A stretch of 64,000 nucleotides of DNA from Lysobacteraceae bacterium CU05-9. GTDB lineage: Bacteria > Pseudomonadota > Gammaproteobacteria > Xanthomonadales > Xanthomonadaceae. The stretch spans positions 62,001 to 126,000 of the forward strand of contig SWJS01000001.1 in the NCBI GenBank assembly GCA_007556525.1, in the 5' to 3' direction. The position numbers and the translations under genes were made by a program. The stretch's first letter is position 1. Each line of letters opens with the position of its first letter. A model generated the notes under the pieces. The model was not told where the DNA came from. It saw only the letters and a program-made list of their open reading frames with translations, and did not search any database. This document shows positions 1,996 to 8,367 of this stretch, piece by piece.

Positions 1996-2301
1996 ATGGC
2001 TAAGACCTCCATGATCAACCGCGATCTCAAGCGTTCCAAGCTGGCCGCCAAGTACGCGGGCAAGCGCGAAGAGCTGAAGAAGATCATCTCGTCGCAAACG
2101 GCATCGTTTGAAGAAAAGATGGACGCTGCAACCAAGTTGCAGAAGTTGCCACGTGACTCGTCGCCTTCGCGTCAACAAACGCGGTGCGTCATCACCGGCC
2201 GTCCACGTGGCGTGTACAACAAGTTCGGTCTCGGCCGTAACAAGTTGCGCGAGCACACGATGAAGGGTGACGTTCCAGGCCTGCGTAAAGCTTCCTGGTA
2301 A
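1996..2301 (+). CDS. rpsN: 30S ribosomal protein S14 (zinc-independent form)
   Basis: A 101-residue S14 of the long, zinc-free (C-) type: no CxxC pairs, with the conserved [22 protein letters not shown] and the C-terminal [19 protein letters not shown]14 sits in the 30S head and binds 16S rRNA. In other proteobacteria rpsH follows directly; here the ribosomal run stops, an intrinsic terminator follows, and unrelated genes occupy the next 5.7 kb. Confidence 0.98.
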
Positions 2302-2325
2302 TCGTTCTCCGGAATTGATTGAAAG

Positions 2326-2358
2326 AATCCCTGCACTGAGAGGTGTGGGGATTTTTTT
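2326..2358 (+). terminator. Intrinsic terminator after rpsN
   Basis: An 11-bp stem (2326-2336 with 2343-2353, two G-T pairs) and a 6-base loop are followed by a run of T to 2358. It lies 25 bases after the rpsN stop, so transcription of the first half of the spc operon should end here. Confidence 0.75.
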
Positions 2359-2447
2359 ATGGATGCTGAATTGTTCGGCGGCGTCTTGATACGGCGTTCA
2401 TGGCCTGCTTGCGAAAATACTCCCATCCATTCACAACGGAAGAATCC

Positions 2448-2885
2448 ATGAAACGTCTGATGATCGCTGTTGCACTTGCCGGTGCCGTGTCGCTGGGTGC
2501 ATGTGCAACGCAACCACCTGTTGATACGCCCGCGCCAAGCAATAGTGCGTTGACGGCATACACGTGGAAGCTGGCATCGGGTCCAGCATCGTTGACCAAC
2601 GCGGACAACGTCGTCATGACGTTTGGTAAAGACGGTCGCGTTTCGCTGGCGGGTCTGTGCAACCGCATGAGCGGCGGATTCACGGAATCCGGTGCCACTG
2701 TGACGATCACGCAAATGGCATCGACGATGATGGCGTGTGCCGATAATCGTCTAAGCAACCTCGAGCGCGAAGTCGGTGGTGGTATCCAGGGCACGCACTC
2801 GATGATGATGACGCGCAGTGAGCCGCCACAACTCAACATGAAGATGCAAAGCGGTCAGACCTGGATTTTCCGCGGTCAGCGTTAA
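2448..2885 (+). CDS. META-domain lipoprotein (HslJ-like)
   Basis: A 145-residue predicted lipoprotein. The start at 2448 puts a short signal peptide (MKRLMIAVALAGAVSLGAC) with lipobox L16-G17-A18-C19 directly at the N terminus and has GGAAG upstream; an ATG at 2400 would bury it. The mature part has META-domain features: a YTWKL opening, MTFGKDGRVSLAGLCNRMSG, two cysteines in the expected area (LCN and MMAC) and a C-terminal WIFRGQ. META proteins such as E. coli HslJ are envelope stress or resistance proteins of unclear mechanism. It overlaps the convergent zinc-ribbon gene by 4 bases. Confidence 0.85.
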   Translation: MKRLMIAVALAGAVSLGACATQPPVDTPAPSNSALTAYTWKLASGPASLTNADNVVMTFGKDGRVSLAGLCNRMSGGFTESGATVTITQMASTMMACADNRLSNLEREVGGGIQGTHSMMMTRSEPPQLNMKMQSGQTWIFRGQR

Positions 2886-3880
2886 CCGCATTGGTCAAGC
2901 GTGACGGGAACGGTGGCGTAGTGCTCCTTCCCGTCGCGGTTGCGAAACTCCAGCAGGATCATCGCGCCATCTTTCAGCAGTTTCAGTTGCGATGGCTGCG
3001 AACAATAATTTGACCGTACGTACGCCGGCATGTTGGATTCAATCATTGCCAAAACCTGATCGCGCGGATACGGGTGATCGATATTCATGATCATGCGCAA
3101 GGTCTTGCTGGTTGCTGCGGCGCCGGTGACGACGGTTTTGGAATCGATGCGCATTGGTGCACGTTGATTGATTTGGTTTGCCATATCTGTCAGCGCGGCT
3201 TCGAGTCCCGTGGCATTGCTTGCAACATTTGCGCCTGAGGTTGTTGCTGCAGTCGGTGCTGATGTTGATGCAGAGCAATCACTGCCACGCGTGACGAAAC
3301 TTCCGTACTCATGGCTACCGTCTGCGTTGAGGTAGCGGTATTCAAACTCCCCGCCTTGGTCAAGCACGCGACGGCGGTCAGCAGTGGAGCAGTCCTGCGC
3401 AATCGTTTGCTGATGCATCACGCCACGGATTTGGTTCGTGGTTTCCATCGGGGTGTTTGGCGAGTCGATGCGGAAATCGAAGCGTAGTCGTTTGTCGCCG
3501 ATGAGTTCAGCGCCATGCAGTGTCGTGTATTCATCGACTTTGCGAGGTATCGACGCTCGCGCTGTCTCTGCACTGCGGCGGAGAACATCGCTGACGCTTT
3601 CCGTCGATGGTGCAGGGTCTTTTTGGCCAAGGACGATTTTCGCGGCTTCATCCATTTGCGACTGGTTTGGATGTTTGGGTGTGCACATTTTGGCAATCAA
3701 AAGCAACGCAACGAACCCGATGACCAGCGGCAGCCATTTGGGGAAACGCGACTTCGGCTTCACGGGCGCGCTCGCAGTGGGTTTGTTTTCAGCATCCGTT
3801 ACCGCGGCGGTGGGTGTGCCACATGCCGGACAAAATTTAGGTTCGCCCTGAATTGCTTGACCACAGTTTGCGCAGAACAT
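2882..3880 (-). CDS. Zinc-ribbon membrane protein of unknown function
   Basis: A 332-residue protein with an N-terminal zinc ribbon (C3, C6, C17, C20 in two CxxC knuckles). A Ser/Pro/Lys-rich linker and one membrane segment (about residues 49-66, WLPLVIGFVALLLIAKM) follow. The large C-terminal part has a linker rich in Ala, Ser and Thr near its middle, which separates two similar halves: each has a stretch like LRFDFRIDSP or LRMIMNIDHP, then a cysteine-containing segment and FEYRYLNADG or LLEFRNRDG. This looks like an internal duplication of one extracytoplasmic domain. The function is not recognised. It is divergent from the TonB receptor gene. Confidence 0.8.
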   Translation of the reverse strand: MFCANCGQAIQGEPKFCPACGTPTAAVTDAENKPTASAPVKPKSRFPKWLPLVIGFVALLLIAKMCTPKHPNQSQMDEAAKIVLGQKDPAPSTESVSDVLRRSAETARASIPRKVDEYTTLHGAELIGDKRLRFDFRIDSPNTPMETTNQIRGVMHQQTIAQDCSTADRRRVLDQGGEFEYRYLNADGSHEYGSFVTRGSDCSASTSAPTAATTSGANVASNATGLEAALTDMANQINQRAPMRIDSKTVVTGAAATSKTLRMIMNIDHPYPRDQVLAMIESNMPAYVRSNYCSQPSQLKLLKDGAMILLEFRNRDGKEHYATVPVTLDQCG

Positions 3881-3932
3881 GGATGTTCCTAATTTATCGT
3901 TGCGATGTTTATATCATCGCATGCCGGCAACA

Positions 3933-3961
3933 TTGAGATAAGTATTTGAAAAATATACAAT
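3933..3961 (+). promoter_or_regulatory. Sigma70-like promoter of the TonB receptor gene
   Basis: TTGAGA (3933-3938), a 17-base spacer and TACAAT (3956-3961) give a strong sigma70-type promoter reading toward the receptor. The predicted transcription start is about 3968, next to an ATG at 3969. That ATG could give a leaderless reading frame passing through the G10 tract. Confidence 0.6.
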
Positions 3962-4041
3962 CTCACTGATGGCTCCAGGGTCCCACTTCGCTGGATTTAG
4001 AGTGAAGGTAAGCGATTTGTTTAGCAGTACAAGTTTCACGA

Positions 4042-4061
4042 GTGTGTGTGTGGGGGGGGGG
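4042..4061 (+). repeat. (GT)5 plus G10 simple-sequence tract
   Basis: Five GT repeats (4042-4051) run straight into ten G (4052-4061). Homopolymeric G tracts of this length are typical contingency loci that change length by slipped-strand mispairing. The tract lies in the first codons of the TonB-dependent receptor frame, between its promoter and its signal peptide. A sequencing length error in the homopolymer is possible. Confidence 0.85.
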
Positions 4062-6427
4062 CAGCGTCTGCGACAACGGTGTCGACGTTGTCACTTGAAT
4101 CATTGAAGCGCAACAGACTCTTTGTCGTAATCGTTGCAGTTTTCGGTGCAGCAGCCAGTGCAACGGCCCAAGAATCCAAGTCGTTACCAATATGTCCGGA
4201 GTCGACCGCGAAATCGACGACGACGGTCGAGAGCAATGAGGAGTTCCTTCGACGTGCTCTGCGGGAGAGACTGGGTCGCGATGTTCAAGTGCAGATGGTC
4301 GGCCCGCAAACGGCTCCGAAGGCTAATCCAAACGCAGAAGTCCTGAAGCCTCCACACTGCATTCCTGCTAATGAGGCATCGTCCGACGGTAAACCGCCAT
4401 TGCAGGTCGGGCGCGTCCAAGTGACTGGAACGGGTGCGAATGCCGATGATACGAAGCGCGTCATATCGCAGAAGGATCTGGCAGATCCGGACAAGCCACT
4501 CGCGATTCAGCAGTTGGCAATGCAGCCAGGCCTTGTGGTGACGAACCGCGGCATCTCGATGCTTGGTATGGCAGAGAGTGAAACGCGCGTGCTTGTGGAT
4601 GGTCGACGTCCGCCACTTGGATTCAGCATCACGAGATTGCGTGCATCTGATCTGGAAAGGATCGAATATGTTCTTGGTGCCGATGCTGCATTTCCCGGGA
4701 GTGGCATCGGTGGAACGATCAACTTCATCACGAAACGAAATGCAGTGAAGCCGCGGTCGTCGATTTCCGTTGCACGGAGCGGTGGCAATGATACTGGCTT
4801 GACATTGCACGCGAGTGGCGCGCATCCGATCGGAATGTACTCATCGCACAGCTGTAACCTGGAATGGCTGGACATTCAATCAGATAATTCCGGCAGCTCG
4901 AATGACTACCGTTGGAGTGGTCTGTCCCGTCCGAACGGAACTAGCTCAAATGACCGTGACTCAATTTCGCGGAACCGTGTTGGATTTGCCGGATATACGA
5001 TCACGCATTTGCTTCCCGGCGGCTCCTCACTCCGCTGGAGTCTCCGCAGAAATCAATCTGATTTCGAGAACAACGATTATTTTTCAAATTGGCGCGGTGA
5101 CATTCTTGGGCTACCGCTGATCGAAAGAATCGCAGACCGCTCGACGGCAACGAACAGCGCTGGCATGGATTGGCAAAAGAAATTCGCGAACGGCTCGGCT
5201 GTCAATGCAACACTGACGCGCATTGGGCGGACGGAAGACAGTGATTCGATGATCATTGAAGAAGCGGCGCTGAACTCAACACGCGCCAGTCGCAATTCGT
5301 CAATGTCGGATGGAAGCAATTTGCTTTTCGATTTGGGATACCAACTGCCGAAGCTGGCACGCGTGAACTGGTCGGTTGGACTGAATTACTCGAAGGATAA
5401 GCAAAATACTTCGTACACGTGGTTTGGTGACGGTGGCGATTACGAAAGTCACTCGGTCGATCAACGTGAATTATCAGCCGCGTACGTCAAGGCGGTTGCC
5501 CCAATCGGGAAGCGCGTATCCATGAACGCGGGTCTGCGTTATGCAGGCGCAAAGCTCGATGGTACAAGATCCATTTTGACCTCCCCACGTTATTCCTATA
5601 ACGAAAATTGGATAGAACCTAGTGTGACGTTCTCTGTCAATCAGGCGCACAACCGTCGCACGACAATTGCGCTGAGCCGCAACGTCAACGTGCCAGGAGT
5701 TCACCGCCTGCAAGTCAATCCGTTGCCGGTTCTGGGTTACGAGAATATGCCCTTGTTCGCGACACGTGTTTTTGGTGAGCGAGGTGCGCGACTCAATAAG
5801 GTCGATTCGATTGTCGTGACCTCCGACTTGCCGGATTTTCTAAATTTCAAAATGTTTGCGAGCGGCGCGCTGCATCATTATCGCGATACATTCGGCGACC
5901 GGATTTTTGATGTCGATGGTACTTGGCTCATTCAACCGTGGACTTTGGAGAACGCAACGGTACGTGGTTTGAGCTTTACTGCGAAACGTGGCCGCGATGT
6001 TGGTTGGCCTGTCGCCGGAAAAATTGACGTGCAATTTTCTGCGAGCCGTAACTGGGCAAACTTGGCTGGGAACAACAAGGCAAATACCGTGTCCGGCGTG
6101 CCCATTTCAAACATCGATTTGCGCGTGGAATATCGAGCGGGCAGTGCAGTTTTCACGGCGTCCCTCGGTAAGCGAGACAATGGGCGCGTTTACAGTGGGC
6201 CCGCTTACTGGTTGGAAATGAACAATCCAGTATCCGCAAGGGTCGCGACGACATGGCGATTCAACCCACGGTGGACTGCATCATTAGGGATGTCCAACTT
6301 GATTGCGGGCGATTCGGTGACGGCATTTGCATTTAACGACGGCAAACACTCGATGACTTCAGTACGAACGGGCAAAACCCGTCCGCAATTCCAAGTGACC
6401 GTCGCAAGGTCCGTTAATCCGCGGTAG
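4046..6427 (+). CDS. TonB-dependent outer-membrane receptor, possibly phase-variable
   Basis: A receptor of about 790 residues. After a signal peptide (LFVVIVAVFGAAASATAQ, about residues 24-41) and a variable segment come a plug domain (about 125-235, VQVTGTG to GGTINFITKRN, with TRVLVDGRRPP) and a beta-barrel. The C terminus (VTVARSVNPR) lacks the usual terminal aromatic. The start is uncertain. The GTG at 4046 reads through the G10 tract; GTG 4079 and TTG 4103 lie after it. An ATG at 3969 would join this frame only with 11 or 8 G. No ribosome site is clear for any of them. The substrate is unknown, and no transport genes are adjacent except an NhaC-type antiporter on the other strand. Confidence 0.85.
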   Translation: MCGGGAASATTVSTLSLESLKRNRLFVVIVAVFGAAASATAQESKSLPICPESTAKSTTTVESNEEFLRRALRERLGRDVQVQMVGPQTAPKANPNAEVLKPPHCIPANEASSDGKPPLQVGRVQVTGTGANADDTKRVISQKDLADPDKPLAIQQLAMQPGLVVTNRGISMLGMAESETRVLVDGRRPPLGFSITRLRASDLERIEYVLGADAAFPGSGIGGTINFITKRNAVKPRSSISVARSGGNDTGLTLHASGAHPIGMYSSHSCNLEWLDIQSDNSGSSNDYRWSGLSRPNGTSSNDRDSISRNRVGFAGYTITHLLPGGSSLRWSLRRNQSDFENNDYFSNWRGDILGLPLIERIADRSTATNSAGMDWQKKFANGSAVNATLTRIGRTEDSDSMIIEEAALNSTRASRNSSMSDGSNLLFDLGYQLPKLARVNWSVGLNYSKDKQNTSYTWFGDGGDYESHSVDQRELSAAYVKAVAPIGKRVSMNAGLRYAGAKLDGTRSILTSPRYSYNENWIEPSVTFSVNQAHNRRTTIALSRNVNVPGVHRLQVNPLPVLGYENMPLFATRVFGERGARLNKVDSIVVTSDLPDFLNFKMFASGALHHYRDTFGDRIFDVDGTWLIQPWTLENATVRGLSFTAKRGRDVGWPVAGKIDVQFSASRNWANLAGNNKANTVSGVPISNIDLRVEYRAGSAVFTASLGKRDNGRVYSGPAYWLEMNNPVSARVATTWRFNPRWTASLGMSNLIAGDSVTAFAFNDGKHSMTSVRTGKTRPQFQVTVARSVNPR

Positions 6428-6441
6428 TTCCAGTTGAATTG

Positions 6442-7758
6442 TCACTCGACGGTTGATTTCGGCTTTTGGAAAATCATGAAACCAATCGTGATCACTGCGA
6501 GGATCCAGCAGTAGTAGACGTTGCCGGCCAAAGCGAGGGGCGAAACCTTTGCAAGCGACGATGCCAGAAGGATTTGCGCGCCGTAGGGAATCACGCCCTG
6601 CACAATGCACGAGAAAATATCCAGCAAACTCGCGCTGCGCTTCATTGAAACACCGTGACGTGTGGCGATGTCTTTCGCGAGTGGGCCACTGATCAGAATC
6701 GCAACGGTGTTGTTCGCGGTCAACGCATCGGTGGACGAGGCGAGAGCGGCGATGCTGAATTCACCGGAGCGACGGGATGCGTGGGAGCCGGCGAAGGAGT
6801 GGATTTTGGCGGCGAGCCATGCAAGGCCGCCAGTCTCACGAATCAACTCCGCGAGACCGCCGATGAGAATCGAAAGCAACGTGATTTCCACCATGCCTTC
6901 GAAGCCTTTGTAGATGTCACCAACGAATGACACTGCGCCGTAGTCAATCGAAGGATTGAGAAAACCGAACACACCCGCCAGCACGATGCCGATGCTCAAC
7001 ACCAACAGCACGTCCATCCCAATCAAGGCGAGCACGAGCACAACGAGATAGGGCAGTGCCAACCACCAACCTTGATGCGATGGTGCTATGGTTTGCGCTT
7101 CAGGGCCGATCACGAACAAAACAATCGCCGTGAGCAACGCGGCGGGGAGGGCGATTTTGAAATTTTCGCGGAATTTGTCTTTCATGCGCACGCCCTGCGA
7201 ACGCGTTGCGGCGATCGTCGTGTCCGAGATCATCGACAAGTTATCGCCGAACATCGCGCCACCAATAACGGCTCCGATCGTCAATGCCAAGTCAAATCCG
7301 GCACCTTGCGCGATGCCCAACGCAATCGGCGTGACGGCGGCGATCGTACCCATCGATGTGCCGATCGCCAGCGCGACTAACGCAGAGACGATGAACAGCC
7401 CCGGCAAAATCAAAGACGGATGCAAATTCCCCAAACCCAATGCGACAACGGCATCGACAGCGCCGATGGCTTTGGAGACAGTCGCGAAAGCGCCCGCCAG
7501 CAGGAATACCAGCACCATCAACATCACATTCGGCTGACCCATGCCGTGCAACAACGACTCAGCAGGCTGAACACCGCGACGCCAGGCGATAAACGCCGCC
7601 AGCGCAATTGCCGGTAAAATCGCCACCGGCGCCCGCAGTTGGTAGAACCCCATGTCGGTTCCGGACGCCGTGAAATACATTCCCGCCCCGAAAAATACGG
7701 CGAGAAACAGCAACAACGGGAGCAGGGCAAGCCCGCTGGGGCGCGGATGGTCGGTCAT
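6442..7758 (-). CDS. NhaC-family Na+/H+ antiporter or related amino-acid exchanger
   Basis: A 438-residue polytopic membrane protein with about ten or more hydrophobic segments. It shows NhaC-family blocks: GTSMGTIAAVTPIALGIA, a GGAMFGDNLSMISDTTIAA motif and a C-terminal NNTVAILISGPLAKDIA. The family exchanges Na+ for H+, or malate/lactate or amino acids in some members; the substrate cannot be read from sequence. The ATG at 7758 places the first membrane helix near the N terminus; an ATG at 7788 is also possible, and neither has a clear ribosome site. It points away from rpsH and is the last gene of the block that splits the spc operon. Confidence 0.88.
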   Translation of the reverse strand: MTDHPRPSGLALLPLLLFLAVFFGAGMYFTASGTDMGFYQLRAPVAILPAIALAAFIAWRRGVQPAESLLHGMGQPNVMLMVLVFLLAGAFATVSKAIGAVDAVVALGLGNLHPSLILPGLFIVSALVALAIGTSMGTIAAVTPIALGIAQGAGFDLALTIGAVIGGAMFGDNLSMISDTTIAATRSQGVRMKDKFRENFKIALPAALLTAIVLFVIGPEAQTIAPSHQGWWLALPYLVVLVLALIGMDVLLVLSIGIVLAGVFGFLNPSIDYGAVSFVGDIYKGFEGMVEITLLSILIGGLAELIRETGGLAWLAAKIHSFAGSHASRRSGEFSIAALASSTDALTANNTVAILISGPLAKDIATRHGVSMKRSASLLDIFSCIVQGVIPYGAQILLASSLAKVSPLALAGNVYYCWILAVITIGFMIFQKPKSTVE

Positions 7759-7840
7759 TGGGGTGGTTTTGTCATGAAAGACGACCATTTAACCATGTTG
7801 CAATGCGTCACGGGGCTGGATTCGAATGCATCCAGGGCTA

Positions 7841-7869
7841 TTGCTCTAGCCCGAAAAACCCATTACAAT
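7841..7869 (+). promoter_or_regulatory. Sigma70-like promoter for the rpsH half of the spc operon
   Basis: TTGCTC (7841-7846), a 17-base spacer and TACAAT (7864-7869) lie about 100 bases before rpsH. The -35 hexamer is the loop of an inverted repeat, GGGCTA (7835-7840) and TAGCCC (7847-7852), which could be an operator. This promoter would let rpsH to rplQ be transcribed independently of the upstream ribosomal genes. Confidence 0.65.
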
Positions 7870-7968
7870 GTTCGACTTCGTGCGAATTGCGCGCGGAGTT
7901 TACTACAACACAATCGAATTATTCGCATGCGCGGATATCGGTGCACTCATTAGAAGGAACGCTTTTCC

Positions 7969-8367
7969 ATGAGCATGACTGATCCAATCGCAGACATGCT
8001 GGTGCGTATCAAGAACGCAGCAGCTGTTCGCAAGACGACGGTAAAGATGCCGTCCTCGAAGACCAAGGTCGCAATCGCCAAAGTCCTTGAAGACGAAGGT
8101 TACATTTCGGGTTCGCAAGTATCTGAAATCGGCCCTGGCAAGAAAGAACTTGAAATCGTACTGAAGTATTACGACGGCCGTCCGGTCATTGAACGCCTGG
8201 AGCGCTTCTCGCGTTCGGGTCTGCGTCAATACCGCGGTAAGGATGCTTTGCCTAAGGTCCTCGGTGGCCTCGGCGTTGCAATCATTTCCACCTCCAAGGG
8301 CATCATGACGGATGCGCAAGCACGCCAACAAGGCGTCGGCGGCGAAGTCCTGTGCTTTGTGGCTTAA
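7969..8367 (+). CDS. rpsH: 30S ribosomal protein S8
   Basis: A 132-residue S8 of standard length, beginning [17 protein letters not shown] and ending with the conserved [16 protein letters not shown]8 binds the central domain of 16S rRNA and in E. coli represses the spc operon mRNA. The start has an AGAAGGAA ribosome site. It is the first gene of the second half of the split spc operon and is preceded by its own promoter. Confidence 0.98.

Follow-up and report, generated by a model that had tools for sequence, protein, structure and literature searches.

A (GT)5-G10 tract in the probable untranslated leader of a TonB-dependent-receptor-like gene in a member of the Lysobacteraceae

In Neisseria, the haemoglobin receptors HmbR and HpuAB carry a poly-G tract inside the reading frame, where it switches the frame (PMC3786947), and the poly-G of PorA lies within the promoter (PMC3639595). 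In the poly-G phasome of Campylobacter, tracts most often have 9 or 10 G, and the cut-off is at least 7 G (PMC6321876). The locus that we describe here, a (GT)5 repeat followed by ten G ahead of a gene for a TonB-dependent-receptor-like protein, resembles each of these systems in part. As in HmbR/HpuAB, a poly-G tract accompanies an outer-membrane uptake receptor, but the probable start codons lie past the tract here, whereas the Neisseria tract lies within the frame. As in PorA, poly-G occurs upstream of an outer-membrane protein gene, but the tract starts 90 bases past the predicted -10 box rather than within the promoter. Finally, ten G is among the commonest lengths of the Campylobacter phasome and above its cut-off, but Campylobacter has many tracts per genome, whereas this genome has five G-runs of at least 8 in 2.35 Mb and mutS is present. 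For the Lysobacter/Xanthomonas family, our literature search brought up no direct account of phase variation or of leaderless starts, nor any described phase-variable TonB-dependent receptor.

The window analysed is a stretch of 64,000 nucleotides (C1:62001-126000) of a 2.35-Mb genome available as a draft in 15 contigs, which is the sole representative of its genus among the genomes compared. Its nearest named relatives by SecY, Lysobacter and Luteimonas species, share 72-77% identity with it, which points to an isolated lineage of Lysobacteraceae (Xanthomonadaceae). Its mutS is intact and full-length, so mismatch repair is probably working.

The receptor gene is one of four carried by an insert in the spc ribosomal operon. 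In all 29 relatives checked this insert is absent and rpsN and rpsH lie side by side, about 44 to 218 bases apart; outside its own genome, the zinc-ribbon gene had no relatives in a search of 149 genomes of the family. The insert is a more unusual feature of the locus than the tract. The features of the locus are as follows (positions in the window):

2302-7968, no strand assigned: insert of about 5.7 kb between rpsN and rpsH, with four genes
2400-2885, + strand: META-domain gene of the insert
2882-3880, - strand: zinc-ribbon protein of the insert
3933-3961, + strand: candidate sigma-70 promoter TTGAGA-17-TACAAT, matching 10 of 12 consensus positions
3969-3971, + strand: ATG some 8 bases past the -10 box, where transcription is predicted to start
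4017-4019, + strand: TTG in the frame of ATG 3969, with Shine-Dalgarno-like AAGGT at 4005-4009 (anti-Shine-Dalgarno energy -5.6)
4042-4051, + strand: (GT)5 dinucleotide repeat, read from the sequence and preceded by A at 4041
4052-4061, + strand: G10 homopolymer, the longest G-run in the genome
4079-4105, + strand: candidate receptor starts past the tract, in frame (GTG 4079, TTG 4088, TTG 4103)
4103-6427, + strand: TonB-dependent-receptor-like protein, signal peptide MKRNRLFVVIVAVFGAAASATA followed by plug and beta-barrel, frame intact
6442-7788, - strand: Na+/H+ antiporter of the insert

The receptor gene is 2.3 kb long, and at G10 its reading frame runs through the tract without a stop. The protein matches PF14905, an outer-membrane barrel family, above cut-off and PF07715, the plug domain, just below it (23.5 vs 23.9); a paralogue on C9, 23% identical over 652 positions, passes for both plug and barrel. 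On this evidence the protein has both the plug domain and the beta-barrel by which a TonB-dependent receptor is recognised. Its C-terminus (6390-6427) reads ...FQVTVARSVNPR, without the aromatic last residue usual for outer-membrane barrels. Two further, distant paralogues lie in tandem on C13, and no tract like this one is present at the start of any of the three. A search of 60 genomes, its own among them, gave nothing outside its own genome beyond weak matches, mostly to the plug domain (best E 1.7e-8). No orthologue was detected at E 1e-12 in a set of 395 family genomes that included its own, nor by peptide patterns in genome_contigs; the plasmid collection gave no match, and no relatives were found by sequence in the PDB. 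The receptor gene is intact and looks like a lone, lineage-specific one.

The G10 tract is the only run of at least ten G on either strand of the genome, and the other runs of at least 8 number four (one G9 and three G8). In stretches totalling 840 kb of the genome, runs of at least six G were far fewer than expected under a dinucleotide model (9 against 87), and the two longest runs in this sample, of 10 and 9 G, stand clear of the tail. Long G-runs are therefore suppressed in this genome and the G10 tract is an outlier, which is what slippage growth would produce. A G10 run occurs somewhere in 33 of the 39 related genomes, so that length alone is unremarkable for the group and the presence of such a run is by itself no proof. 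Ten G exceeds the published slippage cut-off for SSR-mediated phase-variable genes (at least 7 G), and by such cut-offs the tract is a good slippage candidate adjoining a surface-receptor gene.

Some other sequence features of the genome were also recorded. The second-longest G-run, the G9 at C1:54407-54415, lies 43 bases ahead of the likely ATG of a gene encoding an exported Sel1-repeat protein, and no site resembling a promoter was found to span it; the longest and second-longest runs of G in the genome are both near starts of exported-protein genes. Tandem heptamers in 3-4 copies, whose units are related (AAGTTTC, AAATCTG, AAACCTG, GTTTCAG, GATTTCA and TTTCAAG), occur at C1:349488, C1:424190, C9:55966, C9:108687, C9:109159, C9:134393 and C9:287112, mostly at or outside gene ends. 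A stretch at C8:314860-317867 looks far more G+C-rich than the remaining genome and is possibly foreign DNA.

The original prediction assumed a strong promoter upstream of the receptor. In a scan of 3700-4300, TTGAGA-17-TACAAT was the sole match, with 0.4 expected, but a wider scan (2200-8100) returned 2 matches against 3.6 in shuffles, that is, fewer than in shuffled sequence. The promoter is therefore plausible but unproven. Lying well downstream of the predicted -10 box, the tract leaves promoter spacing untouched. A role as promoter spacer was rejected, no promoter-like site spanning the tract, which would fall within a reading frame only if initiation occurred at ATG 3969, TTG 4017 or a GTG of the repeat. 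No Rfam family scored above cut-off in 3700-4300, and the leader therefore holds no known riboswitch; no other copies of it were found in the genome.

At G10, the receptor frame extends upstream only as far as TAG 4022 and offers four candidate starts, GTG 4046, GTG 4079, TTG 4088 and TTG 4103. The last is the shortest in-frame start and yields a standard signal peptide, MKRNRLFVVIVAVFGAAASATA-QE, with essentially no Shine-Dalgarno (-0.2). TTG 4088 gives the same signal peptide plus five residues, and GGTG 7 bases upstream is a possible Shine-Dalgarno (-5.5 kcal/mol with the anti-Shine-Dalgarno). In the upstream frame, ATG 3969 is without a Shine-Dalgarno and would require leaderless initiation. 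An anti-Shine-Dalgarno energy of -5 is reached by 15% of random sites, so that energies of this size are not decisive for the choice of start. Codon use differs on the two sides of the tract. Over 25 codons, the ATG 3969 frame scores -0.37 bits per codon, which is non-coding-like, below 97% of gene starts (3rd percentile, first 25 codons) and also below 86% of the open stretches between genes. Just past the tract, by contrast, the receptor frame is coding-like (+0.11 bits per codon, 13 codons), and the signal peptide scores +0.28 bits per codon. Coding character thus seems to set in past the tract, as judged from short stretches of 25 and 13 codons.

The original prediction had read the locus as a candidate phase-variable gene, and its description of the sequence was borne out: (GT)5 and then ten G do lie between the predicted promoter and the receptor signal peptide, the ATG where transcription is predicted to start has a frame that runs into the tract without a stop, the arithmetic by which that frame joins the receptor frame with 11 or 8 G and not with 10 is correct, and the GT repeat has GTG codons in all three frames. 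The tract, its rarity in the genome, the open frames and the starts in frame at each length are direct observations. Over the range of 7-13 G, the ATG 3969 frame joins the receptor frame only at 8 or 11 G, and these two lengths alone bring in the upstream starts (ATG 3969 and TTG 4017). GTG 4079, TTG 4088 and TTG 4103 are in frame at every length, as are one or two GTG of the GT repeat, and a GTG in every frame argues for buffering and against switching. The most likely starts lie past the tract, in frame whatever its length, and a simple on/off switch is therefore unlikely for a tract in a probably untranslated leader with such buffering starts. What survives of the proposal is a slippage-prone tract beside a surface-receptor gene; the frame-switch mechanism, with tract length as on/off control, is not supported, given these starts and the non-coding-like upstream frame.

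On balance, we consider it somewhat probable that (GT)5-G10, a microsatellite prone to slippage, lies in the 5' untranslated leader of this intact and lineage-specific receptor gene and has little effect. Transcription would begin near 3968, a leader of about 120-135 bases would hold the tract, and translation would start past it, at TTG 4088 or TTG 4103. A change in tract length would then add or remove one leader base without switching the reading frame, and with the start downstream of the tract such changes would alter only the leader and have little effect. In this scheme we infer where transcription begins, which codon starts translation and how large any effect is. Against it, the downstream starts are all non-ATG and none has a strong Shine-Dalgarno; a leaderless ATG just where transcription is predicted to begin is suggestive, and the upstream frame also has TTG 4017 with its Shine-Dalgarno-like AAGGT. 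The same upstream codons are the basis of translational phase variation, where the receptor would be made only from ATG 3969 (leaderless) or TTG 4017, G10 being OFF and 8 or 11 G being ON. The location of ATG 3969 at the expected transcription start, its frame open into the tract with stops in the other two, the energy of the AAGGT (-5.6) and a tract that no other G-run of the genome equals in length and whose size is typical of phase-variable loci all favour this alternative. However, the upstream codon use is non-coding-like, the several starts in frame past the tract at every length mean that the OFF state would leak, and the ON product would have about 45 extra residues ahead of the signal peptide, and we regard it as improbable. 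Slightly more doubtful still is a contingency switch at a single locus in a lineage of Xanthomonadaceae, where the leaderless ATG and G10 would exert frame-based on/off control of an accessory receptor and the GT repeat would provide low-level GTG starts in every frame.

Graded expression variants, with tract length altering mRNA structure, stability or ribosome access, are a less remote prospect, if still an unlikely one. The tract has the predicted promoter on one side and the likely starts on the other, and the predicted fold pairs part of it with C-rich sequence near 3980; yet shuffled sequence folds just as well as the leader (z -0.5), on which ground a structured leader was rejected, and start-site accessibility is nearly constant, predicted pairing around the starts shifting by a few hundredths across 7-13 G. 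Least probable of all is that the tract was mis-called and its true length is other than ten. Some sequencing platforms are prone to errors in long homopolymers and the assembly is a 15-contig draft, but the sequence has no sign of error, with the receptor frame open through the tract at G10. A leader microsatellite of little effect is thus the reading that we prefer. If the tract varied and altered receptor levels, however, the gene would be a case of phase variation in a TonB-dependent receptor of the Lysobacter/Xanthomonas family.
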